DNA from: Halobacterium noricense
Lineage (GTDB): Archaea; Halobacteriota; Halobacteria; Halobacteriales; Halobacteriaceae
Length of the DNA: 64,000 bases
NCBI RefSeq assembly: GCF_021233435.1
Contig: NZ_CP089468.1
Location: 1,550,001-1,614,000, forward strand
Reading direction: 5' to 3'
In this document: in pieces, positions 13,667 through 35,794 of the stretch
How positions within the stretch are numbered: position 1 is the first letter of the stretch
How the letters are laid out: the number at the start of each line of letters is the position of its first letter
The notes under the pieces: model-generated
Databases searched by the model: none
The model's input: the letters and a program-made list of their open reading frames with translations, nothing else
What the model was told of the DNA's origin: nothing
Made by a program: the position numbers and the translations under genes

Positions 13667-13688
13667 GCTTTGGTTGCTTTCCTGCAAC

Positions 13689-15290: not shown

Positions 15291-15316
15291 GGTATATAGT
15301 TCCCCATATTGGGGAA
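15291..15316 (+). promoter_or_regulatory. TATA box and palindromic operator of the IclR gene at 15367
   Basis: GGTATATAG (15291-15299) is followed at once by a palindrome with arms TTCCCC and GGGGAA around ATATT (15300-15316). Its position between the TATA box and the expected transcription start fits an operator for autorepression by the IclR protein. The assignment is inference. Confidence 0.6.
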
Positions 15317-15366
15317 AGATGTCGGGGGAACCCAGATTTAACACCCTTCCCCGACAGTGATGAAGT

Positions 15367-16122
15367 ATGACACGGACCAACGACGGAGAATGGCGGAAGA
15401 CTACAGCGACGTCGCTGCGCATCGTTGATGCCATCGAGGAGCTCGACGGTGCGACCCTCTCGGAAATTTCGGAACACATGAGGCTTTCCTCAAGCACGCT
15501 GTACACGCACCTCAACACCTTGGAGGAGCTCGGGTACGTCACGAAGATCGGTGAAAGGTACTGTCTCGGATTGAAGCTTTTCCACCTTGGGGAAATATCT
15601 CGTTATCGGGATGATCGGTACAGGTTAGCGAAGGAGAAGGCCTTCGAACTCGCGAATATGACGAACGAGGAGGTCAGCTTCGCAGTCGAGGAAAACGGTC
15701 GCAGCATCATCCTCTTCGACGAAACCAACGCCCCTTCGAGGGAGGGGTACCAGGTAGGTCGGTATTTTTATATGCACAACTCCGCCAGCGGCAAGGCTAT
15801 GCTCGCTGAATTCGATGCGGAGTACCGTGAAGAGGTCCTAGATCGATGGGGAATGCCACGGGAGACGGAGAACACCATCGTCGACCGGGACGAACTCCAC
15901 ACTGAGCTCGAACGTGTTCGAAAGCGCGGCTATGCCGTCAACGATCAGGAGGCCCTGGAAGGACTCCGTTCGGTGGGTGTCGCGGTCAAAAGTCCGGACG
16001 GAGACGTATTCGGATCGCTGGACGTCTCCGGACCGCCATACCGACTTCCTCCCGACGAGGAATTGGCCGGCCTACTCCAGAACGCGGTTGGTGAACTTGA
16101 GGCTTCGATAGGAACGAAGTAA
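15367..16122 (+). CDS. IclR-family transcriptional regulator
   Basis: A 251-residue IclR regulator. Residues 15-75 form the winged helix-turn-helix (VDAIEELDGATLSEISEHMR, then SSSTLYTHLNTLEELGYV). The effector-binding domain follows, with HNSASGKAMLAEF and GLRSVGVAVKSPDGDVFGSL. The palindrome at 15300-15316 just below its TATA box suggests self-regulation. It is divergent from the threonine ammonia-lyase, with about 380 bp between the two starts, so the target could be that gene or the gcv operon beyond; this is unproven. Confidence 0.93.
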   Translation: MTRTNDGEWRKTTATSLRIVDAIEELDGATLSEISEHMRLSSSTLYTHLNTLEELGYVTKIGERYCLGLKLFHLGEISRYRDDRYRLAKEKAFELANMTNEEVSFAVEENGRSIILFDETNAPSREGYQVGRYFYMHNSASGKAMLAEFDAEYREEVLDRWGMPRETENTIVDRDELHTELERVRKRGYAVNDQEALEGLRSVGVAVKSPDGDVFGSLDVSGPPYRLPPDEELAGLLQNAVGELEASIGTK

Positions 16123-16139
16123 TTCGTCGGCCGGTACCT

Positions 16140-16345
16140 TCGCCATTCATCATACTGCGCCCCCGAATCGTGACAGCTGTCTCGTCAACGATGACCTGCT
16201 TCGGTTTTAACTCAGGCGCGTCGTATTGGCTGTCGGTAAACCGATGAAACCTGTCCCAGATACGCCATGAGAACGTTTAAACCCAGATATGAGGGGGCTT
16301 TTGTTGTCGCCTGAATCGAACAACCGGCTGGTGCAGGTGGATAGT
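16140..16345 (-). pseudogene. IS6-type transposase relic
   Basis: Minus-strand reading gives APELKPKQVIVDETAVTI around 16160-16220, preceded by residues like GVSGTGFIGLPT that match the WQWVHRLSDS region of the IS6-type element at 58080 with many changes. Only the middle part with the first catalytic Asp survives. The rest of the 16123-16545 gap holds nothing I can identify. Confidence 0.6.
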
Positions 16346-16545
16346 GATGTCCGTCGAAGCATTCTGATCCAGTCATTTGCCCGAGGGCCTTCTAAACCAG
16401 TGCCATATCCCTTACAAAGCAAGCTTTCAATATTACCCTAAACCAATTCCACGGTATATCACACACTAAAACTTACTCAGACAGGTAGCTCCTCCGGAGA
16501 TATACGAGCGCGATTCACGCGATAGGCAGCCACCATAAGATTACA

Positions 16546-16556
16546 CCGATATATTT
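16546..16556 (+). promoter_or_regulatory. TATA box of rdfA
   Basis: CCGATATATTT lies about 28-30 nt above the ATG at 16584 and supports a leaderless start there rather than at the earlier in-frame ATG 16560, which is too close to it. Confidence 0.55.
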
Positions 16557-16583
16557 GTAATGATGGAGCGAGTAGCTGACGAC

Positions 16584-17192
16584 ATGAGTGAGTCTCCGTC
16601 GCGACCAAACAGCAAGGTCGCACGCGTCATCGAGAAGTACGACCTTAGTGGTATGGGCGAACAACTCGAAGTCGCTTGGACGGGCGAACACGGCGATCGA
16701 ACGAGCCTGCGAGACCTCGCCGACGAGTTCAACCGCGCGGTACTGGACGCAGCCATCCGGCGCTCGGACGGCGGCATCTCCGAGACCGACCTCCAGAGCG
16801 CCTACCAGACGCTCACCGGCGACGACGTCTCCAGCGCCGATCGCATGCGCAAGCAGCGCGAACTCGAAGCGATGGGCGTCGACGCCGATGCCGTCCAGTC
16901 CGACTTCGTCACACACCAGGCAATCCACACGTACCTCACGGAGTACCGCGAGGCCGAACTCCCCGACCAGTCCGGCGACCCCGACCAGAAAGCCGAGATG
17001 CTCGAACGCCTCCAGGGCCGCACCTCCGCCGTCACCGACTCGACCATCGAAGGCTTGGTGTCCAGCGGCGAACTCAGCGAGCGCGACTACGACGTCATCG
17101 TCGACGTGCGCGTAATCTGTGGGGACTGTGGAACCGACTACGCCGCCGGCGAACTGCTCCGGCAGGGCGGCTGCGACTGTAGCGAGGCGTGA
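16584..17192 (+). CDS. rdfA: RdfA-family rod-determining factor
   Basis: A 202-residue haloarchaeal protein of the RdfA (rod-determining factor) type, recognised from SKVARVIEKYDLSGMGEQLE at the N-terminus, the central NRAVLDAAIR segment, and the C-terminal cysteine pairs CGDCGTDY and GGCDC that resemble a small zinc ribbon. RdfA was named for a role in rod cell shape in Haloferax volcanii, where an SMC-like gene is its neighbour, as here (recalled, not checked). The molecular activity is not established by the sequence. I choose ATG 16584 from the TATA position. A decayed second copy of its 5' end lies at 37230-37350. Confidence 0.85.
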   Translation: MSESPSRPNSKVARVIEKYDLSGMGEQLEVAWTGEHGDRTSLRDLADEFNRAVLDAAIRRSDGGISETDLQSAYQTLTGDDVSSADRMRKQRELEAMGVDADAVQSDFVTHQAIHTYLTEYREAELPDQSGDPDQKAEMLERLQGRTSAVTDSTIEGLVSSGELSERDYDVIVDVRVICGDCGTDYAAGELLRQGGCDCSEA

Positions 17193-17210
17193 GGAAAACA
17201 GAGGGTGACA

Positions 17211-17220
17211 ACATTTAAGC
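17211..17220 (+). promoter_or_regulatory. TATA box of the SMC-related gene
   Basis: ACATTTAAGC is centred about 29 nt above ATG 17246, so this gene can be transcribed separately from rdfA as a leaderless message. Confidence 0.6.
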
Positions 17221-17245
17221 CGTAGCCCCTCGTCAAACGTAACTA

Positions 17246-19198
17246 ATGGCATCACAGCAGCCTGTCGAACGTGACGTGCGTGTTCACGCTCAAAACGTCG
17301 GCGGCATCGACGAGGCCGAAGTCTCGCTCCCCCCGGGCGTGACCGTGCTCACCGGCCGGAACGCCACCAACCGAACGTCGTTCCTGCAAGCGATTATGGC
17401 GGGCCTGGGGAGCGAGCGCGCCTCGCTGAAAGGCGACGCCGACGAGGGCGAAGTCGAACTCCAAGTTGGCGACGAAACCTACACCCGCACACTCACCCGA
17501 AGCGGCGACACCGTCGTCTACGGCGGCGACCCCTACCTCGACGACCCCCTCCTCGCCGACCAGTTCGCGTTCCTCCTCGAAAACACCGAAGTCCGGCGCG
17601 CCGTCGCGCGCGGCGACGACCTCCGGGAAATCATCATGGACCCGGTCGACACCGAGGAAATCGAGTCCCAGATTCGCCAACTCGAAAACGAGAAACGCGA
17701 CCTCGACAATCAGATCAAGGAGCTCGAGCGAATCGAGCACGAGCTCCCGGAACTCGAAGCCGAAAAACAAACCCTCGAAGACGACCTCGAGGCCGCCCGC
17801 GAGGAGCTCGCCGAGGTCGAAGCCGAAATCGAGGAAAAAGACGTTAGCCTCGAACAGAGCCGCTCCCAGAAGGAGGCCATCGAGGACGCCTTCGAGGCGC
17901 TGCGGGACGCCCAATCCGACCTCGAAGACGTCGAGTTCGAACTCGAAACCGAACAGCAGACCCTCGAAGACCTCCGCGACGAGCGCGACCAGCTCGAAGC
18001 CGAACTCGACGACGTCGACGAGCACGACGAGAACCCGGACCGGCTTGCCGGCCGCATCGACGAACTCCGCGAGCGCAAGCGCGCACTCGACGACACGATT
18101 AGCCAGCTCGGCAGCGTCATCAGCTTCAACGAGGAAATGCTTGAGGGCGAAGGCCTGGACCTCGACGAGTTCGGTGACGACACCGACACCGATGCCGACC
18201 CGACCCAACAGCTCCTCGGCGAGGCCGAGGACGTCGTCTGCTGGACGTGTGGCTCCGAGGTCGAGCGCGACCACATCGAGGGGACTGTCGACCACCTCCG
18301 CGACCTCCGTGCGGAGAAACTCGACGAGCGCAGCGACCTCGACAACCAGATCGACGAGCTCTCGTCGACCCGCTCGGAGATTCAGCGACAGCAGCGCGAG
18401 CGCGAGCGCACGGAACGACGCCTCTCGGAGGTCGAGAACGAAATCGAGGCCACCGAGCAGCGCATCGACTCCCTCGAGGACTCCCTCGAAGAGCAGCGCG
18501 AAGAAGTCCAGCGTCTCGAAGCCGAGACCGAGGACGCCGGTACGGGCGGCGACTACGACGAAGTGCTGGAACTCCACCGCAAGTCCAACGAAGTCGAACT
18601 CCGCGTCGAGCGCCTGGAGAGCGACCTCGAGGACGTCGAAGCCGATATCAAAGAGCACGAGGAGACGCTCGGCGAGCGCGACGAACTGGCCGAGCGCCGC
18701 GACGAAATCGACGACGAACTCACCGACCTCCGGACGAAAGTCGACCGCATCGAGGCCGAAGCCGTCGAGGAGTTCAACGACCACATGGAGTCCGTGCTCG
18801 CAGTGCTGGAGTACGACAACATCGAACGCATCTGGGTGGAACGCCGCGAGCGCGAGGTTCGCGAGGGCCGCCGCAAGGTCGAGAAGACCACCTTCGACCT
18901 CCACATCATCCGCGCGACTGACGACGGCACGTCCTACCGGGACACCATCGACCACCTCTCCGAAAGCGAGCGCGAAGTGACCGGACTCGTGTTCGCGCTG
19001 GCGGGCTACCTCGTCCACGAAGTGTACGAGGACGTCCCGTTCATGGTGCTGGACTCCCTGGAAGCCATCGACTCTGACCGCATCGCGCGCGTCGTAGAGT
19101 ACTTCAGCGACTACGCTGACTATCTCACCGTCGCCCTGCTCCCCGAGGACGCCCAGGCGCTCGACGACGACTACGCCTACGTCGAGCAGATCGACTGA
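17246..19198 (+). CDS. Archaea-specific SMC-related protein
   Basis: A 650-residue SMC/Rad50-like protein. The N-terminal head has LTGRNATNRTSFLQAI in the Walker A position, but the usual GK[ST] is replaced by NRT. Residues about 130-530 are nearly continuous coiled coil rich in Glu/Arg/Leu, broken by a hook-like CWTCGSEVERD near residue 332. The C-terminal head has DTIDHLSESEREVTGLVFAL (signature-like) and VPFMVLDSLEAID in the Walker B position. This fits the haloarchaeal SMC-related (Sph/ASRP) group. The altered nucleotide-binding motif is typical of that group as I recall it. Adjacency to rdfA suggests a joint role in cell architecture or chromosome organisation. Confidence 0.87.
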   Translation: MASQQPVERDVRVHAQNVGGIDEAEVSLPPGVTVLTGRNATNRTSFLQAIMAGLGSERASLKGDADEGEVELQVGDETYTRTLTRSGDTVVYGGDPYLDDPLLADQFAFLLENTEVRRAVARGDDLREIIMDPVDTEEIESQIRQLENEKRDLDNQIKELERIEHELPELEAEKQTLEDDLEAAREELAEVEAEIEEKDVSLEQSRSQKEAIEDAFEALRDAQSDLEDVEFELETEQQTLEDLRDERDQLEAELDDVDEHDENPDRLAGRIDELRERKRALDDTISQLGSVISFNEEMLEGEGLDLDEFGDDTDTDADPTQQLLGEAEDVVCWTCGSEVERDHIEGTVDHLRDLRAEKLDERSDLDNQIDELSSTRSEIQRQQRERERTERRLSEVENEIEATEQRIDSLEDSLEEQREEVQRLEAETEDAGTGGDYDEVLELHRKSNEVELRVERLESDLEDVEADIKEHEETLGERDELAERRDEIDDELTDLRTKVDRIEAEAVEEFNDHMESVLAVLEYDNIERIWVERREREVREGRRKVEKTTFDLHIIRATDDGTSYRDTIDHLSESEREVTGLVFALAGYLVHEVYEDVPFMVLDSLEAIDSDRIARVVEYFSDYADYLTVALLPEDAQALDDDYAYVEQID

Positions 19199-19694
19199 CG
19201 GTCGCGTCCCCGTTCGACGGCTTTGCTATCAGGACGGTGAATCTGCTGCCGTCGCCCGTTCGAACGTCACTATTTGAACTGGCCAAAGAGATTCGAGAAT
19301 CTGATATTTTTCTTCCCCTATCCGATTTATTATCTTCTCGACTTCGGATTATACCCCCATATTCTAGACGATAGTTCGGGAATGCGGTTGGAGTTGCCGG
19401 CAGAGCAGTATCGTGCGAGAAGACGGTATAACGGACCGTTAAGCCAGTACTTCAACAGTCTTGGTTTCGTCGTGAGTTCGTGATAGCGTTCGATACCGAG
19501 AGCAAGTGAATTCCCCAATATTTACCTGAAATACATCTATAGGCCCTCAAAGCCTCTTTTCTAATTTCTTCTCGGGTGAGAAACCACCCCTCGCCGACAA
19601 ATAACGGAAAGAATTCATAAATTTCAATCTCGGCTCCATACACCATAGAAAAATCAGGAAAAGAGAATATACATAAATCTGGTATTTCTTTTCC
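19199..19694. other. AT-rich gap without a recognisable gene
   Basis: About 500 bp, clearly more AT-rich than the neighbours. Short frames exist on the minus strand (64 residues at 19452-19646, 62 residues at 19330-19518), but neither shows a known motif or good codon bias. It may hold decayed foreign DNA. Confidence 0.5.
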
Positions 19695-20381
19695 TTAAGA
19701 CTGCCCGTCGGGCCGTGCGAACAACGCGAGCGCCATCAGCACGGACCCGGCGACGATAGTGGCGCTGGACCAGACGAGTAGTTGTCGCGTCGTGCCGGGA
19801 GCAGTGGCGGCGAGGTCGACGAACACTCGGACGTCGAGCGCCACGACGAGCGCCGCGCCCACGACGTCGAAGACGAGGTCGTAGGCAGTATCCTGCCAGC
19901 CGTAGTACACCAGCACGGGGTCGACGTCGTAATGCTCGCCGACGGCGCGCGCGACCAGCTCGCCGAATTCCCAGCACACGCCGGCAACGACGGTGTAGCT
20001 GACAGCGGCGACCGCGACGACAGTAATGGAAACCGAGCTACCGACTGTGACGAGGAGGCCGGCGTACACGAGTGCGGTCAAGAGCGCCGCGGAGAGCGTG
20101 TGGGTCAGGTGATCCCACCACCAAATCGAGTCGTAGGGACCGAGCATCCCGATAGAGTGAATGAGCCCAGCAACTGCCGTCCAGAACGCGAGTTCCGGGG
20201 CGACGAAGCCACGCTGGCCGAACTCGAATCCGGCAGCAGCCGCGACCGCGACCCCGGCGATGCCGAGCGAGACGACGGCGTTGACGGCCGCTGCGACGTT
20301 CCTGCGACGCACGGCGAGCGCGAGCACGAACGCAATCGCGCCGAGCAGTGCGGTCAGGAGGGCTATCGCAACGTTGTTCAT
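19695..20381 (-). CDS. Integral membrane protein of YjdF/DUF2238-like type
   Basis: A 228-residue membrane protein with about seven hydrophobic segments. The central WWWDHLTHTLSAALLTALVY, later CWEFGEL, and WQDTAYDLVFDVVGAALVVA match the pattern of YjdF/DUF2238 proteins (paired histidines in DHLTH, WE in one helix, DT-xx-DL in another). No function is assigned to the family. I start at ATG 20381 (MNNVAIALL) because the upstream extension to 20447 is not hydrophobic and is unlike a signal. It is monocistronic, with no obvious partner. Confidence 0.75.
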   Translation of the reverse strand: MNNVAIALLTALLGAIAFVLALAVRRRNVAAAVNAVVSLGIAGVAVAAAAGFEFGQRGFVAPELAFWTAVAGLIHSIGMLGPYDSIWWWDHLTHTLSAALLTALVYAGLLVTVGSSVSITVVAVAAVSYTVVAGVCWEFGELVARAVGEHYDVDPVLVYYGWQDTAYDLVFDVVGAALVVALDVRVFVDLAATAPGTTRQLLVWSSATIVAGSVLMALALFARPDGQS

Positions 20382-20666
20382 GGAATTCGGAACACCGATG
20401 CGCGGAAGATGGCGACAGTCCGATAAGACTCTTTGGACCGCGTGCATCCACCCGTCGACGCCGCGCGTATATGTGGCTGCGGCACCTCAGACGACGTATC
20501 TTGCACTCGGACTCCGCCAGCCTCCACAAGGCCCCCCGCACTCACGGCAGAAACCGACGCAGTCCTCGTCGCGTTCCTCGTCGACCCCGACGCCCCCGTC
20601 ACGCGACAGGGGACGGTCGGTCGCTGAGAAGGGGCAGCACTACTCGAACGCTGGCGCGTTTGGCGT

Positions 20667-21137
20667 TCAGTTGACGTCGACGATTTCGACGTCGAACTCC
20701 AGCGTCTTGCCGGCGAGTTCGTGGTTGAAATCCACGCGAATCTCCTCCTCGTCGGCGTGAACGATTTCGCCAACCTGGCCGTTCTGGGCTTCCAGATACG
20801 CGCCCTCTTCGGGCGTCTGTCCGCCGAGCATCTCGCGGAGTTCGGCCGTCTCGAAGGACTGGACGTTCTCCTCGTCCCACTCGCCGTACCCCTTCTCGGG
20901 CGGGATTTCGATGGTCGTCGACTCGCCCTGCTCGAGGCCGACGAGGCCTTCTTCCATCCCCTCGATGACTTGCTGTTCGCCGACGTCGAGCGTCAGCGGC
21001 GCGTACTCGCGCTCGCCCTCGGCCTCGGTCAGGCCAGCGTCCTCGGCGACGGCTTCACGCGAGGTGTCGAAGACTGTGCCGTCGTCCATTCGGCCAGTGT
21101 ACTCCAGGGTCACAGAATCGCCGGTAGCGATTGTCAT
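20667..21137 (-). CDS. FKBP-type peptidyl-prolyl isomerase (SlyD-like)
   Basis: A 156-residue FKBP of the SlyD type, catalysing proline cis-trans isomerisation and acting as a chaperone. It starts with DSVTLEYTGRMDDGTVFDTS, and has QQVIEGMEEGLVGLEQGEST (FKBP core), then the insert-in-flap domain with ENVQSFETAEL, and ends in VDFNHELAGKTLEFDVEIVD. There is no histidine-rich metal tail. It is cytoplasmic, without a signal sequence. It lies downstream of the M24-like gene on the same strand with a 52 bp gap, and its own weak TATA-like GATTATC sits upstream. Confidence 0.93.
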   Translation of the reverse strand: MTIATGDSVTLEYTGRMDDGTVFDTSREAVAEDAGLTEAEGEREYAPLTLDVGEQQVIEGMEEGLVGLEQGESTTIEIPPEKGYGEWDEENVQSFETAELREMLGGQTPEEGAYLEAQNGQVGEIVHADEEEIRVDFNHELAGKTLEFDVEIVDVN

Positions 21138-21189
21138 ACTCGAAAAAGTATCGACGCACCGATAATCCCTTTCATCGACGGACGAGTGA

Positions 21190-23374: not shown

Positions 23375-23876
23375 GGTAGTGTTCAGATAAGGATTGGTCT
23401 GACTGCAGCTTCAGCCGTCGAATCAGCCGATTTCCTGGTGGTCGCCGGGAGAGCAACGCTCTCCCGAGGCCTCGGAAATCGGAGATTTCCGGCGGATTGA
23501 AAGGGCGAGGCGCGCGTGGCGGCGAAGCCGCCACGTTTTGCGGCGGTCGGCGTAGCCGACCGCCCACTCAACGAACCCCGGCGTTCGGAAGACGCGACGC
23601 GTCTCTCGTCGCAATTCGCGAGGGCGGCGAACGCTTTGCGTTCGCCTGCTCTCGAAAGAGCGCTGTGCGCTCTTTCGGCGACAGAGAGGGAGCAAGCTCC
23701 CTCAGGCAGCCGGCGGGTATGCCCGTCGGCGACAGCGAGCCGCGGGAGTGTCGTGAGTGCAACGAGCGAGACCACGGGAGACGAGCATAGCGAGTCTCCC
23801 GACGGTCGAGACTGCCGAGGGCGTTCAAAAGGCAACGTCGTCTCCGCTACTTTCGTCTGCTTATCTGAACACTGCC
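23375..23876. mobile_element. Hairpin-array MITE, copy A (502 bp)
   Basis: A non-coding element with ends GGTAGTGTTCAGATAAGG and (reverse) GGCAGTGTTCAGATAAGC. It carries at least eight near-perfect hairpins with 3-4 nt loops, e.g. arms GGCGGTCGGC/GCCGACCGCC, loop GTA (23542-23564), arms GTGGCGGC/GCCGCCAC, loop GAA, and arms GGCGAACGC/GCGTTCGCC, loop TTT. It is in the opposite orientation to the copies at 30959, 31832, 32271 and 57471. Flanks CTGCTCAC and GTGAGCGG are reverse complements rather than direct repeats, apart from one mismatch. Long spurious frames cross it on both strands. Confidence 0.85.
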
Positions 23877-24846: not shown

Positions 24847-24937
24847 CCAGCGGCGTTCTTCCCAAAAGATTTTGACTAACTATCCAGTACGCTCGCACAC
24901 CAACGGGAATGAACGCCGGTTGATACGATGACCGAAC

Positions 24938-25047
24938 GGGCACTGTCTAGTTGAGTCAGTTTGAGAAGTGAGCAGGTCGTTGAGTAAGTTGGTAAAGATG
25001 CTCGCAGACCTGCTCGCTTCTCAAACTGACTCAACTAGACAGTGCCC
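24938..25047. mobile_element. 110-bp fold-back mini-element
   Basis: Two 41-bp arms (GGGCACTGTCTAGTTGAGTC onwards) are inverted with one mismatch around a 28-bp centre. The left arm plus centre equals the left end of the IS6-type element up to and past its start codon (compare 35650-35747, reverse strand). The right arm is a mirror copy beginning at GACCTGCTC. It codes for nothing, but both ends are proper terminal repeats, so it could be moved in trans. Confidence 0.85.
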
Positions 25048-25160
25048 TTTTAGTGATATTTCCAGGTTGCGTCGAGTCAGGCTACGAATCGTGGTTGAAA
25101 GTGGATCATAGCTAGCTCAAAACAATATCAAAGTTCATCGCGGAAGAGAAGGTTTGTCAG

Positions 25161-26642
25161 CTACCAGACATCCGAGAAGAGATCCTCGTACTCCTCGAGT
25201 GGGGCATCATCGGGCACAGACGTCGAGTACGTCGCCAGGACCATCACGACGAGCTGGCTGACAAGGACTGGGATGAACGGGAGGAAGCCGAACGTTAGGC
25301 TACCGGGGAGGTATCCGAGTTCGAACGCCCAGATACCAACAAAGCCCCAGATCAGTCCCGTGTACGCGGTATACTTGGTGGACCGTTTCCAATAGAAGGC
25401 GGTGATGATGGGGAAGAACATCAACGCATACCCGGAGAAGGCGAATGTTGCTGTGTCGATGATAGAATCTTTCGTCAGGAGTGCCCCGACGTATGCGGCG
25501 ATGAAGATGAGGATGAGGAAGGCACGCGTGAACCAGATCTCGTTCTGTTCGGTGGTGTCGAAGAACTCGCGCACGACGTCTTCAGAGAACATCGTGCTGA
25601 GTGTGAGTACTTGGCCGTCAAGGCTGGACATCAGTGCCGCGAGGATGCCGGCCAGTGCGAAGCCAATTGCCCACACGGGGAGTAGTTCGCCGACCATCGT
25701 CGGGAGGATGAAGTCGGGGTTAGCCAGATTGGGGAATTGCGCGATTCCCCAGAAGCCGAGGATAACGGCCGGAGTCCAAACGAGAAGCACTGCGACCGGA
25801 TAGAGGACGGACGTGTTCTTCAGAGTCTTGATGGAGTTGGCGGTCATGTACCGAATGAAGAGGTGTGGGTACACGAACGCGCCAAAGGCGACGATCAGTC
25901 CCTGCGAGAACCATGTTTTCGGACCGAAGGGCGGGATTCCTCCGCGGTTCAAGAACACGCCATTCTTGATTTCAGCGACGGCCTGAGTTGCTTCAGCGAA
26001 CCCGCCAAGTTTGAGTGGAATCCAGATGAAGATCGCGAGTAAGAACAGGATGAAGACGGCGCCTTGGAAGGTGTTCGTCCAGCCTGTTCCACGCATGCCA
26101 CCTTGGTACACATAGAATGCGACGACGGCTAACGTGACTAATGCGCCCGCCCAGTAGGGGACAAGGCCGTTGGTGATTGCTTCAAGCGTAATGCCTGCTC
26201 CCTGCACGCCGACAAGGACGTACGGAATTGTCCAGACGGTGAACAGCGCCAAGAGGACGAGGCCGAGATATTTTGCATCCCAGCGATGATTCATAATCTG
26301 GCCGGGGGTAATATGTTCGAATCGTTTTCCGACCAGCCAGATGCGGTAGCCGATGGTCATGATGAACACCGGGAAGAGGAACGCGAACAGGGACACGAAG
26401 AACCCATACGCTCCGGCACCGGCACCATATGCAAGTCCTGGTGCCCCGATCATGACGACTGCTGTCATGTTGGTCGCGAAGAGGGCGGCGAGCAGGACGA
26501 TGGTGTTGAACGATCGGTCCGCCATGAGGAAGTCCTCTCGGTCGGATCCGGTTACTCGTGACGCGAATTGTCCGATGCCGAGGACGATTAAGAGGTAGAC
26601 TCCCGTGATTCCGAGGATGATTAGGTTTGCTGTTGATACCAT
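25161..26642 (-). CDS. Sodium:solute symporter (SSS family)
   Basis: A 493-residue transporter of the SSS/SLC5 family with about 13 hydrophobic helices. Recognisable parts are GITGVYLLIVLGIGQFASRV (helix 1), NMTAVVMIGAPGLAYGAGAG, and the conserved FALAGILAALMSSLDGQVLT, which includes the family helix with paired serines near the sodium site. It probably imports an organic acid. It lies tail-to-head with a small membrane partner and close to the salicylyl-CoA genes, so an aromatic acid is a reasonable guess. Start at ATG 26642, three bases after the partner gene. Confidence 0.92.
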   Translation of the reverse strand: MVSTANLIILGITGVYLLIVLGIGQFASRVTGSDREDFLMADRSFNTIVLLAALFATNMTAVVMIGAPGLAYGAGAGAYGFFVSLFAFLFPVFIMTIGYRIWLVGKRFEHITPGQIMNHRWDAKYLGLVLLALFTVWTIPYVLVGVQGAGITLEAITNGLVPYWAGALVTLAVVAFYVYQGGMRGTGWTNTFQGAVFILFLLAIFIWIPLKLGGFAEATQAVAEIKNGVFLNRGGIPPFGPKTWFSQGLIVAFGAFVYPHLFIRYMTANSIKTLKNTSVLYPVAVLLVWTPAVILGFWGIAQFPNLANPDFILPTMVGELLPVWAIGFALAGILAALMSSLDGQVLTLSTMFSEDVVREFFDTTEQNEIWFTRAFLILIFIAAYVGALLTKDSIIDTATFAFSGYALMFFPIITAFYWKRSTKYTAYTGLIWGFVGIWAFELGYLPGSLTFGFLPFIPVLVSQLVVMVLATYSTSVPDDAPLEEYEDLFSDVW

Positions 26643-26645
26643 GTG

Positions 26646-26900
26646 TTATCCCTCCTTGTTGGTGTCAAGGGTTTCTGGGGGTTCTGGCGCTGCACGGTAC
26701 AGAACGTAGAGGATCGCGATTCCGATGACGTTGAATAATGCATCGTATGCGATTTGCATCGGTAACCAGCCGAAGACCAGTGTTGTTGAATCCACCAGGC
26801 CGAGGAATTGGCTTTGATGGACGCCGATCATGAGTACGATCACTCCGAGGAACGAGATACCCCGAAGTGAGTTTGGGTACCATATGCTACCACGGAACAT
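26646..26900 (-). CDS. Small two-helix membrane partner of the SSS transporter (DUF3311/YhdT-like)
   Basis: An 84-residue protein with two hydrophobic helices (FLGVIVLMIGVHQSQFLGLV and AYDALFNVIGIAILYVLY), preceded by WYPNSLRG. Small proteins of this plan (DUF3311, YhdT) are encoded beside SSS transporters and are thought to assist them. I start at ATG 26900 because a TATA box at 26927-26938 lies about 30 nt upstream; a longer frame to 27113 would overlap the divergent flavoprotein gene. It forms a two-gene unit with the symporter. Confidence 0.75.
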   Translation of the reverse strand: MFRGSIWYPNSLRGISFLGVIVLMIGVHQSQFLGLVDSTTLVFGWLPMQIAYDALFNVIGIAILYVLYRAAPEPPETLDTNKEG

Positions 26901-26926
26901 GTGCACCTGCCAGGTTATCGCCCCCT

Positions 26927-26938
26927 TCCATAAATGTT
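26927..26938 (-). promoter_or_regulatory. TATA box of the SSS transporter unit
   Basis: Minus-strand GAACATTTATGG lies about 30 nt above ATG 26900. A second TATA-like ATAAATATTC follows at 26943-26953. Confidence 0.5.
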
Positions 26939-27099
26939 CCGTATGAATATTTATTGATAGGTGTGTGTGGCGAGTTGAACGTCGGTGAGGGTAACCGTTA
27001 TTAGGACCGGGAATAAGTTTGTGATGTGATGGCAGAGACCGCGCTAGCAGCCAGTAGCTACCAGTACAACCCGCGCTCACGCCACGAGGTGGATGAATA

Positions 27100-29226
27100 A
27101 TGGACGTCACCACAATCGGTGGCGGTCCTGGCGGCCTCTACGCGAGCCTCCTCCTGAAAGAAGCAAACCCAGACTGGAACATCACCGTTTACGAACGAAA
27201 TCCTCGTGGGGTCACCTATGGGTGGGGGATCGTCCTTCCGAACCGCACGCTCTCCAAGCTCGAGGATACTGATGCCCCCTCCCACGAAGCGATTCAGGAG
27301 ACCGCAACCCGCTGGGATCCATTCGATCTCTACTACCAAGGCGAGCGCTACCGCTCGGAGGGTCATGGATTCATGAGTCTCCAACGAACGGACCTCCTGG
27401 ACCTCCTACAGAAGCGGTGTGACGAACTAGGAGTCGACCTCGTGTTCGACCACCCAATCGAGAATCCACGCGAGTTGACAGCCGAAGCCGACCTCGTCAT
27501 CGCCGCTGACGGGATTCACAGCAACACCCGACGCGAGTATGCAGACGAATTAGGCGCGGAAATGATTACGGGATCAACGCGATTCTCTTGGTTCGGTACC
27601 GATGCAGACTTCGATGCACTCAGCCACATCTTCGTCGAGAATGAGGACGGAATCTGGTGTGCGCACACATATCCTGGACCGACCAGTACCTTCATCGTTG
27701 ACTGCGACGCGGAAACGTGGGCGAACGCGCGTTTAGACGAACGCTCTGAATCGGAATACCTCGCCTACCTCGAGGACGTATTCGCCGAGCATCTCGACGG
27801 CCACGAACTGCTTTCGCAGACGGACAAGTGGCGAACGTTCACAACGGTCAAAAACGACCGCTGGCACCATGACAACCTCGTTCTCCTCGGAGACGCCGCC
27901 CACACCGCCCATTACTCCGTCGGGTCTGGGACGACCATGGCGCTTGAAGACGCCATCAGTCTCGCGAACGTCTTCGAAAACTACGATGGCGATCTCGAGG
28001 AAGCGCTCGCTACGTATGAGTCGAATCGTCGACCGAGCTCAGAATCGCTGCAGCGAGCGGCGGAACGGAGTCGACTGCACTTCGAACACATCCGTCGCTT
28101 CTATGGGTTTGAGGGCGTCCAGTTCGCGCTCCACCACCTGACGCGTTCAGGGCGACTCTCCTACGACAGCATGCAGCGCCGTGACCCGGAACTAGTCGCG
28201 GAGTTCGAAGACTGGTTCCAGAGTAAAACAGCAGGGGGAGGAGACTACTCGTCACCGAGCCTGCAGTCACTCGACTTGGATGGGCTTGAGCTCAACCAGC
28301 GGACGGTTCGCGCAAGCGAACCAACGGTGTCTGCATCCGATGGCCAGCTCCCCAGTCACAAGGCGACAGCGTACCGTGAACTCGCAACCTCCCACGATGG
28401 ACTTACGCTCACCGAACCGCTCGCCGTCTCCCAAGATGGCCGGCCAACAGCGGGAAGCCCGGGACTCTACACAGACGAACATCGTGGCACTTGGGAACGG
28501 ATCGTCTCGGAGAGCGATACGCCCGTCGGGACCCAACTCGTGCATGCGGGCAGCCGTGGTGCTGGACAGCCACGCGCGTTCGCGCTCGATCGGCCAACGT
28601 CACGAAACGAGGCCTGGGCCCCACGGTTGACCGATCAGTATCCGACACGGCCGGAAGCGTTTGCCCCAGAATCGATGGACGAGGAGCTCCGTGCGCGCGT
28701 TCGCGACGATTTCGAAGCCGCGACTGAGCGGGCAGTAGCTGCAGGATTCGATTATCTCCAGCTTCACCTTGGGAATGGATATCTGCTCGGCTCCTACTTG
28801 TCGCCGGTGACGAATTCCCGTGAGGATCAGTTTGGGGGAAGTCTTACGGATCGCTTGCGGTTCCCATTAAGTGTCGTTGAAGCTGTGAGTGAGGTCTGGC
28901 CGGCCGATCGGACACTCGGCGTGGCGATTCAGGCAGACGATTGGGCAGCCGATGGATTCACGCTGAGCGACGCGATCGAAGTCGGGGAAGAGCTGGTCGA
29001 TGCTGGTGTTGATGTCCTCGCGCCAGTTGCAGGTGGGGTCGTTGCCGATGAGAGCCCAGACCAGGTTGAAGGCCTAGCAAACTACAGTGACCATCTGCGG
29101 AATGAACTTGATGTATCGACAATTGCGACGGTTCATGCCACTACTCAGGACGAAGTGGACACACTTGTCGCAACTGGACGCGCGGATCTCTGTACGTACT
29201 ACGGCCCGTCGATAGAAACGGAGTAA
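27100..29226 (+). CDS. Bifunctional salicylyl-CoA 5-hydroxylase-like flavoprotein
   Basis: A 708-residue fusion of two flavin domains. Residues 1-390 are an aromatic monooxygenase: FAD motif GGGPGGLYASLLLKEANP, AADGIHSNTRR, and GDAAHTAHYSVGSGTTMALE. Residues from about 405 are an Old-Yellow-Enzyme domain: LYTDEHRGTWERIV, HAGSRGAGQP, the active-site LQLHLGNGYLLGSYLSPVTN and REDQFGGSLTDRLRFPL. This layout is that of salicylyl-CoA 5-hydroxylases (Streptomyces SdgC type), which make gentisyl-CoA. It is somewhat shorter than the approximately 770 residues I recall. The ligase behind it on the opposite strand would supply salicylyl-CoA or its adenylate. Gentisate dioxygenase is not in the window. 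Confidence 0.87.
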   Translation: MDVTTIGGGPGGLYASLLLKEANPDWNITVYERNPRGVTYGWGIVLPNRTLSKLEDTDAPSHEAIQETATRWDPFDLYYQGERYRSEGHGFMSLQRTDLLDLLQKRCDELGVDLVFDHPIENPRELTAEADLVIAADGIHSNTRREYADELGAEMITGSTRFSWFGTDADFDALSHIFVENEDGIWCAHTYPGPTSTFIVDCDAETWANARLDERSESEYLAYLEDVFAEHLDGHELLSQTDKWRTFTTVKNDRWHHDNLVLLGDAAHTAHYSVGSGTTMALEDAISLANVFENYDGDLEEALATYESNRRPSSESLQRAAERSRLHFEHIRRFYGFEGVQFALHHLTRSGRLSYDSMQRRDPELVAEFEDWFQSKTAGGGDYSSPSLQSLDLDGLELNQRTVRASEPTVSASDGQLPSHKATAYRELATSHDGLTLTEPLAVSQDGRPTAGSPGLYTDEHRGTWERIVSESDTPVGTQLVHAGSRGAGQPRAFALDRPTSRNEAWAPRLTDQYPTRPEAFAPESMDEELRARVRDDFEAATERAVAAGFDYLQLHLGNGYLLGSYLSPVTNSREDQFGGSLTDRLRFPLSVVEAVSEVWPADRTLGVAIQADDWAADGFTLSDAIEVGEELVDAGVDVLAPVAGGVVADESPDQVEGLANYSDHLRNELDVSTIATVHATTQDEVDTLVATGRADLCTYYGPSIETE

Positions 29227-29232
29227 GCGGCG

Positions 29233-30903
29233 TTAGTTTGCGTTCTCTGCAGCCAATTCTTCCAGGCGCTTCTTGTCTAACTTGCCGACTTCAGTACGCG
29301 GGAGGTCTCGCATCACTTCCAGTCGTTCCGGGCGTTTGAACACGGCAACCCCACGCTCTTCGAGGAACTCGGTGAGGTCATCTAAGGTGAGGGGTGTTGC
29401 GTCTTCAGTAAGTTCGACGAATGCACACGGCCGTTCCCCGAGGCGTTCGTCCGGCATCGCTACAATCGCCACGTTCGCGATATCGGGGTGTTCAGCCACG
29501 ATGTCCTCCACTCCTGGTGCGTAGATGTTCTCGCCGCCACGGATGATCGTATTCTTGATTCGCCCGAAGACAGCGTAGTTCCCGTCTTCTCGATGGGAGA
29601 GCACGTCTTCGGTGTAGAGCCACCCGTCGTCATCGAAATTATCGGCATTCTCTTCGTCATTCCGGAAGTACCCAGTGAAGTATCCCGGACCGCGAACAGA
29701 GAGTTCTCCTGTCTCCCCCTGTGGGACGGTTTCCTCGCGGTCGAAACCAACGATTCGAACCTCAGCACCGTCGGAAATTGGACGGCCAACTGTTTCGGCT
29801 TGGATATCTACGTCGTCTTCGGGGCGGGTACAAATGAGTGGGCCTTCTGCCATCCCGAAGATGTTGCAGAATCCGACGTCCCATGCGTCCACGCTATCGC
29901 GAACGACGTGTGGTAGGACTTTCTGGCCGCCGCTAATAATGACTTCGAGGCTGGAGAGGTCGTATTCGTCTAGGTCGGGGTGTTCGAGAATGTCGATGAG
30001 TTGGGTGGGGATGAACAGCGAGTACATCCCGCCCTCCCGTTCGATGAGATCCATCAAGGCTTCGGGTTTGAGCGTCGGCTCGACTGCGACAGTCGCGCCT
30101 TCCCAAATAGCGGCGCCGACAATACAGTTTAGGGAGGCATTGTGACCAATCGGAACGCTAGGGAAGGCGACCCAGTCGCTGTCGACACCAGCGACGTCAG
30201 CCATGTGCTCCCACTGGTACAGATAATCATTATGGGTGCGCGGGATTCCTTTCGGCATTCCGGTAGTCCCACCAGAAAGCAGCATCACTCCGGGTTCAGT
30301 TGGTGAGATTTCGAGGGAATCGAGTCGCTCGTCGTCCGGCGTGGTTTCGCACAGTGAGTCGAAGTCCTCCCAGCCTCCTGGGAGTGAATTAGCATCGTCG
30401 GCGACGCCGATGAGTGTCTCGAGGTGGGGGTATTCCGACTCGATATTGTCGACGAGCGAAACAAAGTCGAATCCCATCTCGTACCGATCGCCGGCAGTAA
30501 GGTAGGCCGTTGTATCGAAGTTATCTAGGAGATGCCGGACTTCGGCTTCACGATGGCGAGGAAGTGCTTGTACAGGGATTGCGCCGACTCGGGAGCAGCC
30601 GAAGAACGCTTCAAGGAACTCGACTGAGTTCGGCAATTGGAAGATAACTCGTTCGCCGGCGGTGACGTCGTTTGCGTTGAGGGCAGTGGCTAGGCTCCGG
30701 GAGCGTTTTGCAAGTTCAGCGTAAGTTAGTTCCCGGTTTGGGCCTGTGACGGCGACCTTCTCTGGTGTTTCGTCTGCGCGTTGGTCAAGCAGCTCGTGGA
30801 ACGTCAAATCGCGCCAGTAACCTGCGTCACGGTAGCGGTCGATGCGTTCCTGTGGGAAGGGAACGTACCCCTCTAGGGATGCGGGTGAGAGATCGTCACT
30901 CAT
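29233..30903 (-). CDS. Aryl-acid AMP ligase (DhbE/salicylyl-AMP ligase-like)
   Basis: A 556-residue ANL-superfamily adenylating enzyme. The phosphate loop LLSGGTTGMPKGIPRTHNDY, the A5 motif NIFGMAEG, the A7 segment WLYTEDV and the A10 lysine region PRTEVGKLDKK are all present. Overall it resembles 2,3-dihydroxybenzoate/salicylate-AMP ligases (DhbE, SdgA). It would activate salicylate for the hydroxylase. It converges on that gene with a 6 bp gap. I start at ATG 30903 (MSDDLSPAS), with a TATA box at 30933-30943; the GTG at 30918 is less likely. Confidence 0.87.
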   Translation of the reverse strand: MSDDLSPASLEGYVPFPQERIDRYRDAGYWRDLTFHELLDQRADETPEKVAVTGPNRELTYAELAKRSRSLATALNANDVTAGERVIFQLPNSVEFLEAFFGCSRVGAIPVQALPRHREAEVRHLLDNFDTTAYLTAGDRYEMGFDFVSLVDNIESEYPHLETLIGVADDANSLPGGWEDFDSLCETTPDDERLDSLEISPTEPGVMLLSGGTTGMPKGIPRTHNDYLYQWEHMADVAGVDSDWVAFPSVPIGHNASLNCIVGAAIWEGATVAVEPTLKPEALMDLIEREGGMYSLFIPTQLIDILEHPDLDEYDLSSLEVIISGGQKVLPHVVRDSVDAWDVGFCNIFGMAEGPLICTRPEDDVDIQAETVGRPISDGAEVRIVGFDREETVPQGETGELSVRGPGYFTGYFRNDEENADNFDDDGWLYTEDVLSHREDGNYAVFGRIKNTIIRGGENIYAPGVEDIVAEHPDIANVAIVAMPDERLGERPCAFVELTEDATPLTLDDLTEFLEERGVAVFKRPERLEVMRDLPRTEVGKLDKKRLEELAAENAN

Positions 30904-30932
30904 GGGCTTCAATACCACAATAGGGAACGGCT

Positions 30933-30943
30933 CTCATAAATCA
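30933..30943 (-). promoter_or_regulatory. TATA box of the aryl-AMP ligase
   Basis: Minus-strand GATTTATGAGA, about 30 nt above ATG 30903. The MITE at 30959 begins only 15 bp further upstream, so any upstream operator has been displaced. Confidence 0.55.
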
Positions 30944-30958
30944 TCGGTGTCCTGATTG

Positions 30959-31514
30959 GGGCAGTGTTCAGATAAGCAGACGAAAGTAGCGGAGATGCCG
31001 TTGCGTAATGAAAGCCCTCGGCAGTCTCGACCGTCGGGAGACTCGCTATGCTCGTCTCCCGTGGTCTCGTTCGTTGCACTCACGACACTCCCGCGGCTCG
31101 CTGTCGCCGACGGGCTATGCCCGCCGGCTGCCTGAGAGAGCTTGCTCCCTCTCTGTCGCCGAAAGAGCGCACAGCGCTCTTTCGAGAGCAGGCGAACGCA
31201 AAGCGTTCGCCGCCCTCGCGAATCTTCGATTCGCTCAGTGACGAGAGAGCTCTGCTCTCTCGGACCACGCGCGTTCGCTCCCGGTGGTCGCTCACGTGCT
31301 TGCGTTGCCGGGGTTCGTCGAGTGGGCGGTCGGCTGCGCCGACCGCCGCAAAACGTGGCGGCTTCGCCGCCACGCGCGCCTCGCGCTTTCAATCCGCCGG
31401 AAATCTCCGATTTCCGAGGCCTCGGGAGCGCGTTGCTCTCCCGGCGACCACCAGGATTACCGGCTGTATCGGCGAGCACATCAAGCCAGTTTCAGTCCTT
31501 ATCTGAACACCGCC
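30959..31514. mobile_element. Hairpin-array MITE, copy B (556 bp)
   Basis: The element is flanked by a perfect 8-bp duplication CCTGATTG (30951-30958 and 31515-31522), the size made by IS6-type transposases. Ends are GGCAGTGTTCAGATAAGC and (reverse) GGCGGTGTTCAG. Internal hairpins include arms CGAGAGAGC/GCTCTCTCG, loop TCT (31242-31262), arms GGCGGTCGGC/GCCGACCGCC, loop TGC (31325-31347), and arms GAAAGAGCGC/GCGCTCTTTC. It has no transposase gene and must be moved in trans. Confidence 0.88.
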
Positions 31515-31522
31515 CCTGATTG

Positions 31523-31823
31523 ACTGTATTTGATGCCTGGATTATACTTTGTACGTCGTTTGATAGTGGTGCATGAATATTAATGCGGAATGAGATTTCG
31601 AACTGTATAAGTATTTTATGCAAAATATGTTCGCCCAAATGAACCATATTATCTGATTATGTCCGAACTTGTTCGCGTTGTCCGCGTATATCGTGGTCAA
31701 TTCACAACCTAATTGGAGTTATCAGTTTGGTTCCGCATAACGAAAAATCAATTCAAACCTCCGGAAGACCACTTATAATAGACGGGGATTTTTTCCGTAT
31801 TACGGAATTGGAACCGATATAGG
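31523..31823. promoter_or_regulatory. AT-rich gap with a palindromic operator candidate
   Basis: This is non-coding. At 31793-31807 there is a perfect 15-nt palindrome, arms TTCCGTA and TACGGAA around T. It would lie about 64 bp above the ATG of the IclR gene at 33960 if the MITEs between were removed. Similar sequences lie upstream of the IclR gene at 39622. Confidence 0.55.
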
Positions 31824-31831
31824 GTATGAGG

Positions 31832-32262
31832 GGCAGTGTTCAGATAAGCAGACGAAAGTAGCGGAGACGACGTTGCCTTTTGAAAGCCCTCGGTGGTCTC
31901 GACCGTCGGGAGACTCGCTATGCTCGTCTCCCGTGGTCTCGCTCGTTGCACTCACGAGACTCCCGCTGGTCGCTCACGTGCTTACTTCGTCCTCAGAACC
32001 CGTCGGGTTCTGATGGGTGGTTCGAGAGGACGAAGTCCTCTCGTCATCCCGAGAGACGCCGTCGGCGTCTCTCGGTCGACTGCGGAAGACGCGTCGCGTC
32101 TTCCGAACGCCGGGGTTCGTTGAGTGGGCGGTCGGCTGTGCCGACCGCCGCAAAACGTGGCGGCTTCGCCGCCACGCGCGCCTCGCCCTTTCAATCCACC
32201 AGGAAATCGGCTGATTCGCCGGCTGAAGCTGCAGTCAGACCAATCCTTATCTGAACACCACC
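31832..32262. mobile_element. Hairpin-array MITE, copy C (431 bp)
   Basis: It is flanked by GTATGAGG at 31824-31831 and 32263-32270. It carries five hairpins, among them arms CAGAACCC/GGGTTCTG, loop GTC (31994-32012), arms CCGAGAGACGCC/GGCGTCTCTCGG, loop GTC (32049-32075), and arms GGAAGACGC/GCGTCTTCC. Compared with copy E it lacks a block that holds four other hairpins. Confidence 0.88.
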
Positions 32263-32329
32263 GTATGAGGGGTAGTGTTCAGATAAGCAGACGAAAGTAG
32301 CGGAGACGACGTTGCCCATTCGTCTTTAG

Positions 32330-33634
32330 CTAAGCCTCACACCTCGGTTGCGTAGCGGTAGCGAGCGTCTCTTGCAGTATCGGTCGTTGCTGGTGGATCT
32401 TCTGTGCGTCTTCGATCAGCCGCTCCAACAGCGGCGGTGGTGAGTAGCCGAGGAACTCACCGAGTTCGTGAAGAATGAGCTGGGCGTGCGACCGGAAGGT
32501 CGCCGCCCAGCGTTCCGGTGGAAACACGATCTCGTCGTCAGCCTGCTCGGTGACCAGATCCAACAACTCACGGCTCACTAGCAGCGACAGCAACGCCGCA
32601 TACAGCAAAATCTCCACCACAACAGGGTTGCTCGTGTCGAACTCATCTAGTTCGTATTGCGTCTTCAACTCACGAAACAGCGTTTCTACCTCCCATCGAC
32701 ACCGATACAGCGTCCCTAGATCTGCCGGGAGAAACTCTTCTCTCGGTAGATTTGTGATGTACAGATGGTAGTCGTCGGCGTCCTCGTCCCGGACGCCGAC
32801 GACGCGGAACCGCTTCGTGTCTAGCGACCGTGTTCCCTCGTACTGACCCCGCTTGAACTCCGCTTCGACCTCTACGTCAATGTACTCCCGCGAGAGATCA
32901 CCGACTACGTCGTGGATCTTCTCCTCTTCCAAGGGAATGGCGCGCCCGCGCCATTCCCGTAACTCCTCTGTTATCACCGGATTCGCGTTCTGCTTCAACC
33001 GGCTCACAAAGTAGCCGTCGTTCTCGTCGATCAGCGCAAAGCGGCGGTACTTGAAGTACGCTAGGTCAAACAAAACCAGCCGTCCATGCAGCCACGACCC
33101 CGTCTTGAACAACGTGCTGTCGTGCGCTTTTTCATCGGTCACGTCAATCCGTTCAATCGTCTGGTCGGTGGCATTGTGGAGCAGGTGGAGCTTCGCTCCA
33201 GCCTGCTCCTCGTGGCGAGCTTGGAACTCGTCGGAAAGGAACTCGTGCAACCGCAGCACCGTTCCATCAGCGATCATCACGTCTCTAAATCGGTCGATAT
33301 CAGCGTCAACAGCGTCGGGAACAGCGACCTCGTCGAGACCACGCTCGACGAGGTCGCGGAGATACTCTGCAAGTGACGGCGTCAGCCGGTGATAGAAGCC
33401 ACCGGGAGAGATCGTCTCATCGGCTGTGGAGTTGTAGCTACGTCTGAACCCAGCGAGTGTTCGGCTCTCTCCTGTGGCGAAGCCGAACACGAGCGCCCAT
33501 ACGAGGACGGGAATCTGAAGCTTGCCCTCGCGTTCGACCACGCCGAGTTCCTCGGCGTGCTCTTCGAGGAACTCAGAAGGAAACAGTGTAGTAAGACGAC
33601 GCATGATTCTCGATGAGGAGGCGTCTTGGTGCAC
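32330..33634 (-). CDS. IS4-family (ISH8-type) transposase
   Basis: A 434-residue DDE transposase, complete. First Asp in VMIADGTVLRLH, second in LVLFDLAYFKYRR, and the Y-2-R-3-E-6-K signature as YRCRWEVETLFRELK. The coding sequence contains an unusual number of long inverted repeats (e.g. 33324-33357, 32771-32803, 33178-33209). It is preceded by a short 5' region up to the terminal repeat. It looks functional. Confidence 0.95.
   Translation of the reverse strand: MHQDASSSRIMRRLTTLFPSEFLEEHAEELGVVEREGKLQIPVLVWALVFGFATGESRTLAGFRRSYNSTADETISPGGFYHRLTPSLAEYLRDLVERGLDEVAVPDAVDADIDRFRDVMIADGTVLRLHEFLSDEFQARHEEQAGAKLHLLHNATDQTIERIDVTDEKAHDSTLFKTGSWLHGRLVLFDLAYFKYRRFALIDENDGYFVSRLKQNANPVITEELREWRGRAIPLEEEKIHDVVGDLSREYIDVEVEAEFKRGQYEGTRSLDTKRFRVVGVRDEDADDYHLYITNLPREEFLPADLGTLYRCRWEVETLFRELKTQYELDEFDTSNPVVVEILLYAALLSLLVSRELLDLVTEQADDEIVFPPERWAATFRSHAQLILHELGEFLGYSPPPLLERLIEDAQKIHQQRPILQETLATATQPRCEA
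32771..32803. repeat. Inverted repeat inside the ISH8-type transposase gene
   Basis: Arms GTCGTCGGCGTCC and GGACGCCGACGAC, 13 bp perfect, loop TCGTCCC. Confidence 0.9.
33178..33209. repeat. Hairpin with triloop inside the ISH8-type gene
   Basis: Arms GGAGCAGGTGGAGC and GCTCCAGCCTGCTCC (14 bp with one bulged base), loop TTC. Confidence 0.9.
33324..33357. repeat. Inverted repeat inside the ISH8-type gene
   Basis: Arms GCGACCTCGTCGAG and CTCGACGAGGTCGC, 14 bp perfect, loop ACCACG. Confidence 0.9.
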
Positions 33635-33959
33635 ACTTGCCGCCTCCTCGTTCCTCTCAAAAAGTATCCTCGATAAGCCGCTGCTGTCACGCGGTTCCTC
33701 GCTTAGCTAAAGACGAATGCGACGTTGCCTTTTGAAAGCCCTCGGCAGTCTCGACTCCCGCGGCTCGCTGCGCGCGTTCGCTCCCGCTGGTCGCTCACGT
33801 GCTTACTTCGCCGGGGTTCGTCGAGACCACCTCGCCCTTTCAATCCACCAGGAAATCGGCTGATTCGCCGGCTGAAGCTGCAGTCAGACCAATCCTTATC
33901 TGAACACCACCGTATGAGGAGGGGAAACCACTATGATACCAACCACGCATTATGGATGT

Positions 33960-34724
33960 ATGAACAACGATCAGACCAAACGAGTGCAGGCCGACGATAC
34001 CCTGGTCTCAATTCTGGAAGCGATTCAGGATACAAGAGGTGCAACAGCCTCCGAGATAGCAGATATTGTGGGGGTATCCAAAAGCACAGCCTACAGACAC
34101 CTTACGACACTCCACGATCATCGGTTAGTCACGAAGCAGAACGGCACCTACGATCTTAGCCTTCGATTCCTGGACTTAGGTGGCTACGCTAGAGAGCAGA
34201 ATACAGTGTTCGGGGACATCAAACCCACCCTCAAAAATATCGCAGAAGAGACGGGCGAATTCGTGGGGTTTCTCGTCGAAGAAGACGGTCTGGGTGTCTA
34301 CTTACATGGTGAGATGGGGAACAAGGGAGTGCAAAACGATGTCCGAATTGGCCGTCATGTCCACCTTCACCAATCCGCCGCCGGCAAGGCGATTCTTGGT
34401 TCACTCCCGGAACAACGCGTCGAGGAAATCATCGACGAACATGGACTTCCAGCCAAAACTCCAGAAACAATCACTGACAGAGACCATCTCAAAGAGGAAT
34501 TAGCAACCATCCGTAACCGCCGATACGCGTATGCACGCGATGAACATACAGATGGACTCTGGGCAGTTGGCGTCCCAGTTCACGACCGAACAGATCAGGT
34601 CGCAGGCGCCATCCTCGTTGCCGGCCCAACACATCGCATGCATGGAGAGTGGTTCGAACAAGGCCTTCCCGAATATCTCAAAGGGACCGTCAAGGAGTTT
34701 GAGCTCAATCACTCCTTCTCGTGA
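33960..34724 (+). CDS. IclR-family transcriptional regulator
   Basis: A 254-residue IclR regulator. The winged helix-turn-helix spans about residues 15-75 (ILEAIQDTRGATASEIADIV, SKSTAYRHLTTLHDHRLV). The effector domain carries LHQSAAGKAILGSL and DGLWAVGVPVHDRTDQVAGA. I use ATG 33960 (MNNDQTKRVQ); the frame is open to 33933. The tandem MITEs C and D end 41 bp above this ATG, cutting the gene off from the palindrome at 31793-31807. Its likely target is the salicylyl-CoA module next to it, by position only. Confidence 0.92.
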   Translation: MNNDQTKRVQADDTLVSILEAIQDTRGATASEIADIVGVSKSTAYRHLTTLHDHRLVTKQNGTYDLSLRFLDLGGYAREQNTVFGDIKPTLKNIAEETGEFVGFLVEEDGLGVYLHGEMGNKGVQNDVRIGRHVHLHQSAAGKAILGSLPEQRVEEIIDEHGLPAKTPETITDRDHLKEELATIRNRRYAYARDEHTDGLWAVGVPVHDRTDQVAGAILVAGPTHRMHGEWFEQGLPEYLKGTVKEFELNHSFS

Positions 34725-35747: not shown

Positions 35748-35794
35748 TATAGTAGTCGGTAGAATTATTTGCAATAAGGTTGTTGCAATAGGTA

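Follow-up and report, generated by a model that had tools for sequence, protein, structure and literature searches.

A 108-bp Fold-Back of Two IS6-Type Left Ends in Halobacterium noricense: A Probable Scar of Inverted IS Collapse

Introduction

Nearly precise excision of Tn10 leaves a scar of about 50 bp. The reaction, cited in PMC5991714 and PMC12524634, acts on an inverted IS10 pair and consists of a deletion between short direct repeats within the inverted IS ends that leaves a palindromic scar. IS6-type ends without a transposase gene occur in the two known IS6-family MITEs, MITEHarch3 and MITEBth2, which are 227 and 336 bp long (PMC6807381, PMC7986276). The Haloquadratum SMR-A elements (PMC3119063) are about 110 bp long with prominent inverted ends and no target duplication; their ends are unrelated to known transposons, a genome may contain as many as 54 copies, and they target PATE palindromes. 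IS6 transposition itself is replicative, and its intramolecular events are described in PMC7986276 as producing an inverted second copy with loss of the flanking repeats. IS6/IS26 pseudo-compound transposons and cointegrates show IS6-bounded DNA with an outer 8-bp duplication.

Here we analyze a fold-back element of Halobacterium noricense within a window of 64,000 nucleotides (NZ_CP089468.1, positions 1,550,001 to 1,614,000). Like the Tn10 scar, it is palindromic and joined at a short direct repeat within inverted IS ends; it differs in being IS6-type and archaeal, in its 9-bp repeats, which come from a hairpin of the transposase leader, in its length of 108 bp and in the mixed subtypes found among its relatives, and it is known from sequence alone. 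It shares with MITEHarch3 and MITEBth2 the IS6-type ends and the lack of a transposase gene, and is set apart from them, as those elements are described, by its smaller size, its two left ends and its lack of a target duplication or dispersed copies. In size, prominent inverted ends and lack of duplication it recalls SMR-A, but its ends are IS6-type and its copies single, which places it outside that group. The DNA that it borders resembles an IS6/IS26 pseudo-compound transposon, except that one boundary IS is a fold-back and the other is truncated on its left. Within the terms searched, we found no earlier account of a two-left-end IS6 fold-back in the open PMC literature.

Results

Anatomy of the Fold-Back Element

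A repeat search of the window found an inverted pair at 24928-24978 and 25007-25057, within which sequence comparison and fold prediction place the element, tip to tip, at 24939-25046 on the forward strand. An earlier note had described a 110-bp fold-back made from one IS end; the fold-back is confirmed, with a true length of 108 bp, the outer G and C being flanking sequence. The left arm (24939-24978, forward strand) corresponds to positions 1-40 of the IS6-type left end by its 99% match to the IS and by arm comparison, and terminates in the hairpin arm GAGCAGGTC (24970-24978). The loop of 28 nt (24979-25006, forward strand) is the parent transposase leader, with the parent ATG at 24998-25000, as judged from the sequence and from the predicted hairpin of the parent left end. 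The right arm (25007-25046, reverse strand) is a second IS6-type left end in reversed orientation, identified by repeat search and arm comparison, and its junction lies at GACCTGCTC (25007-25015). The switch that the earlier note had proposed at the internal inverted pair GAGCAGGTC/GACCTGCTC is thus located, and the two arms proper, of 40 nt each, differ at a single position.

Left arm and centre, which the note had taken to equal the IS left end, are almost but not fully identical to it: the closest left end in the own genome (G000:C1:1513133) matches at 99% over query positions 1-78. Both tips match the tip of the local IS6-type family exactly, so that the two good ends claimed for the element are indeed present. 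The IS end motif occurs five times in the window at three or fewer mismatches, compared with 0.08 expected. The predicted fold, computed on the 110 bp of the earlier note rather than on the 108 bp from tip to tip, has an energy of -90.3 kcal/mol versus -30.4 +/- 3.4 in 200 shuffles (z -17.8). A search of the own genome found no other complete fold-back. The element is short and non-coding and carries the ends of a known IS, as a MITE does; two other MITE features, the target duplication of the helper IS (0/11 elements) and dispersed near-identical copies (one complete element in the own genome), were not found.

A different small element of 71 bp, which joins the right end of an IS to a left end, lies elsewhere in the own genome (G000:C1:1180933-1181003; L030 1034-1104); it is an internal-deletion derivative and lacks a clear target duplication.

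The Parent IS6-Type Family

Complete copies of the parent family are 744-799 bp long. The transposase of one copy (L026), which is flanked by an exact 8-bp target duplication, scores 193.9 bits against NF033587.1 (transpos_IS6; cut-off 125) and is thereby an IS6 transposase in NCBIfam terms. An 8-bp target duplication, with 7-8 of 8 bases matching, flanks 11/43 complete parent copies, and the other 32 have none. The hairpin around the transposase start is a conserved feature of the parents: a perfect 9-bp stem is present in 47/59 parent left ends versus 0/59 shuffled controls.

A 33.8-kb Insertion Bounded by the Fold-Back

The eight bases before the fold-back, ACCGAACG (24931-24938, forward strand), recur at 58708-58715 on the same strand, immediately after a truncated IS6-type copy (58094-58707, forward strand) whose right tip (58694-58707) was identified by end-motif search and flank comparison. 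A comparison of 24 IS ends from the own genome by their outer 8 bases gave two exact pairs, one being the two ends of a single complete IS and the other the bases at 24931-24938 with those after the right tip at 58707, whereas chance alone would yield about 0.008 such pairs across all pairs compared. Since ACCGAACG is over-represented in the window (9 forward and 2 reverse occurrences), the 8-mer match on its own is weaker than it appears.

A strong and independent test of an insertion came from a relative (G002). With the sequence before 24939 joined to that after 58715, the flanks align continuously to G002:C1:1285606-1285964 at 77% identity, and at 82% in the 171 bases that span the junction; in G002 the joined flanks begin the open frame ATGACCGAAC. 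Furthermore, window segments 16540-21185 and 58708-63984 are consecutive in G002, the order of the chromosome being taken up again on either side. G002 is probably Halobacterium hubeiense, as one of its matches shares the coordinates of a match in a plasmid record of that species. Given this uninterrupted target and the shared duplication, positions 24939-58707 (33,769 bp, forward strand), from the left tip of the fold-back to the right tip of the IS, are best read as a single IS6-type insertion of which ACCGAACG forms the left and right copies of the target duplication. On this reading, the left arm of the fold-back would be the left terminus of the insertion, and the right arm would not belong to the two original boundaries, the right one being at 58707. 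The partner of the left-flank duplication thus sits next to an IS right end at a distance of 33.8 kb, which argues against the window copy having transposed as a unit.

Within the insertion there is also an IS left-end remnant in opposite orientation (35682-35749, reverse strand), found by its match to the fold-back query (97% to positions 11-78, tip lost). A match to the right flank in another genome (G010:C3, 87%) was considered as an empty site and rejected, as another IS end lies there and the site is not clean.

Relatives in Other Genomes

We searched 392 genomes of the order with a model of structure and sequence derived from four copies, inspected 21 places, and added a junction-blind pattern and a plasmid search. 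There are at least 15 fold-backs in total, mostly single per genome, at least 14 of them in at least 13/392 genomes, a count that leaves out the Natrinema zhouii element. Their hosts are the window genome, Halobacterium sp. KA-4 (G011), Natrinema versiforme (G337), N. zhouii, G087 with two (G087a and G087b), and G310, G293, G361, G160, G387, G133, G165, G166 and G317 with one each. The G160 element is 137 bp long with a different right half, the tips of the G133, G165 and N. zhouii elements are decayed, and the G317 element lacks the left hairpin arm. The inspected places, which exclude three full-length model matches of about 36 bits (G075, G066 and G284), comprised 14 fold-backs including the window copy, six ordinary IS left ends (G112, G019, G281, G305, G248 and G314) and one scaffold artefact, the second place in G293.

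No near-identical dispersed copies within one genome were found among the matches listed for the 392 genomes. The sole genome with two fold-backs among these matches is G087, and its copies carry different, oppositely arranged arms. A pattern with exact ends, which proved too strict, retrieved the window copy only (1/392 genomes), and a pattern with shorter ends matched only Halobacterium sp. KA-4 among genome contigs and nothing among viral contigs; the fold-back had no match in phage records either.

In several draft genomes there are direct IS left-end doublets with a single N between them (loci L135, L136, L137 and L132), which are probably artefacts of scaffold joining that might be misread as biology. 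Left-end doublets about 90 bp apart in G238, G305, G370 and G293 have N inside, look like scaffold joins and were set aside.

The Junction

The junction-blind pattern, defined as two inverted left ends 43-103 nt apart, matched ten places in the 392 genomes: six canonical fold-backs, the G317 element and three unrelated sequences. All seven real places are joined at the 9-bp GACCTGCTC junction, and G317 is joined at the same ACCTGCTC as the canonical fold-backs. The position of the junction agrees with that in an excision scar, where the join falls on a short direct repeat found in both inverted IS copies. A corresponding pattern for two inverted right ends matched 0/392 genomes, with a motif that recovers 34/43 right ends versus 41/43 left ends.

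The Two Arms and Their Parents

The arms of 11/15 elements (all except G160, G133, G165 and G317) were compared with 37 parental arm types pooled over genomes. No close parent in the set exists for G166 and G387, which leaves nine testable elements. For six of these, two parental subtypes fit 3-6 mismatches better than one, bearing in mind that a two-parent fit is by construction never worse than a one-parent fit: mismatches fall from 5 to 1 in N. versiforme, from 6 to 1 in G087a, from 6 to 3 in G087b, from 10 to 4 in G293, from 12 to 8 in G361 and from 10 to 6 in N. zhouii. There is little or no gain for the window copy (1 with either fit), G011 (3 with either) and G310 (8 to 7). In G166, a short-type and a long-type left end are joined, and the arms are unequal in length. 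Together, these comparisons support the contribution of two IS copies in 6/9 testable elements and in G166, while for the window copy an origin from a single IS is possible judging by the arms alone. The loop goes with the subtype of the left arm in G087a and N. versiforme, as judged by eye; in G087b it resembles the subtype of the right arm and not the left, so that an exchange of arms can also follow formation.

Flanks and Target Duplications

An 8-bp target duplication is lacking in all 11 elements whose tips are readable (best 5 of 8), a weak contrast with the 11/43 parent copies that do (p = 0.06). Mirror-image flanks are likewise absent from these 11: when the left flank is reversed, the right flank agrees with it at 5 of 8 bases in the window copy and at 0-4 of 8 elsewhere. 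In G087b (G087:C68), the boundary with conserved chromosome falls exactly at one tip, foreign DNA adjoins the other, and about 75 bp of the chromosome are missing. No duplication partner turned up for the N. versiforme element in the 200 of 492 kb searched, and the flanks of the N. versiforme and N. zhouii elements retrieved no empty site.

In G087:C68 (L204 11817-13727), a 1.9-kb foreign segment together with the fold-back stands in place of the approximately 75 bp of conserved chromosome.

Discussion

Origin of the Fold-Back

We favor the view, with a probability of about 0.62, that the fold-back is a rearrangement scar formed by a deletion that joined two IS copies of opposite orientation at the 9-bp hairpin arm. 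The process would start from two inverted archaeal IS6-type copies whose left ends lie on the outside, an arrangement in which inversion makes the 9-bp hairpin arm (GAGCAGGTC...GACCTGCTC) a direct repeat between the copies. Deletion between these repeats, presumably through slipped replication or else single-strand annealing across the inverted pair, would remove both transposase bodies and all intervening DNA, and the product would consist of the first left end, the loop and, in reverse, the second left end. In the window, the left arm would be the left terminus of the 33.8-kb IS6-bounded insertion and the right arm the leftover tip of a second, inverted copy. The precursor, an intact inverted IS pair, was not seen. 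Counting against this view are G087b, whose missing 75 bp or so a simple deletion does not explain alone, and the arms of the window copy and G011, which fit one parent equally well, and of G310, which nearly do. We class the element as a recurrent rearrangement scar, mobility of the element itself not being demonstrated.

The earlier note had instead proposed a strand switch in one IS, in which the nascent GACCTGCTC end anneals to GAGCAGGTC and recopies its own arm to the tip. For the window copy this agrees with arms that differ at 1/40 positions and with a junction exactly at the hairpin, and a single-parent fit as good as the two-parent one extends the agreement to G011. Such snap-back copying nevertheless predicts identical arms, as well as mirrored flanks beyond the tip unless copying ended at a cleaved end, and the flanks, which agree at 5 of 8 bases in the window copy and at 0-4 of 8 in its relatives, do not bear this out. 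Arms that differ in type or length, as they do in at least seven relatives, are impossible from a self-copied strand; a switch within a single IS therefore fails to explain the group, and it finds no support as the general mechanism. For the window copy it stays tenable as to the arms, and overall we judge the snap-back possible but on the unlikely side. A later exchange of arms, in which an old fold-back recombined with other IS left ends, would account for G087b, where the left arm is of one subtype and loop and right arm of another. Against it, the loops of G087a and N. versiforme, among others, match the subtype of the left arm by eye, and recombination over approximately 40 bp should be rare; we regard it as very improbable.

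The element could also be a genuine miniature transposable element that an IS6 transposase mobilizes in trans and whose duplications were lost through intramolecular transposition or recombination. Two perfect tips, an apparently intact transposase gene in the own genome, the 32/43 parent copies that likewise lack a duplication, and the presence of fold-backs in at least 13/392 genomes are all compatible with this. Against it stand the lack of duplications in all 11 readable elements, the absence of any multi-copy set among the matches listed, the opposite arm order of the G087 pair, and the pairing of the window copy's left-flank duplication with an IS right end 33.8 kb off. The minimal transposable element that the earlier note envisaged is accordingly not borne out, and we consider it quite improbable. 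As for the alternative that the note allowed, a dead by-product recognizable as a single copy without duplication, duplications are indeed absent, but many single copies occur in other genomes.

Returning to deletion between inverted copies, it may be extended to a bolder proposal, which we think unlikely as it stands: the transposase-leader hairpin would act as a built-in collapse site that repeatedly condenses inverted IS pairs into a double-left-end transposase substrate, and the fold-back in the window would predate the 33.8-kb insertion and have served as its functional left end. If this were true, IS pairs would go on delimiting and mobilizing gene islands after their collapse had cost them their own transposase genes. 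The fold-backs also suggest a signature for inverted-IS collapse in archaea, namely two left ends, a hairpin-arm junction, mismatched arms and no duplication of their own, and imply that collapse scars can pass for mobile mini-elements. In addition, the analysis exposes a 33.8-kb IS6-bounded haloarchaeal insertion that carries apparently metabolic genes, is flanked by a target duplication and has its uninterrupted site in a relative.

Contents and Surroundings of the Insertion

Read from their sequences, open frames of the insertion look like transporters, IclR-type regulators, a CoA ligase, an FAD oxygenase and tricarboxylate-related enzymes, and the insertion is probably a catabolic island. 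Window positions 25159-34705 are about 87% identical to G010:C3:253468-260395 in another genome of the genus. There, this part of the island adjoins the same chromosomal block (window 5965-19196) in opposite relative orientation, which suggests an inversion.

A repeat of approximately 500 bp occurs in the window at 23375-23876, 30960-31466, 31832-32316, 33720-33913 (partial) and 57471-58085. Its copies are 90-98% alike across the aligned pieces and have ends like GGCAGTGTTCAGATAAG...CTTATCTGAACAC, which resemble those of the other local, ISH29-like IS6 type, making the repeat a candidate larger MITE. A copy of it precedes the right part of both ISs, those ending at 24557 and 58707.
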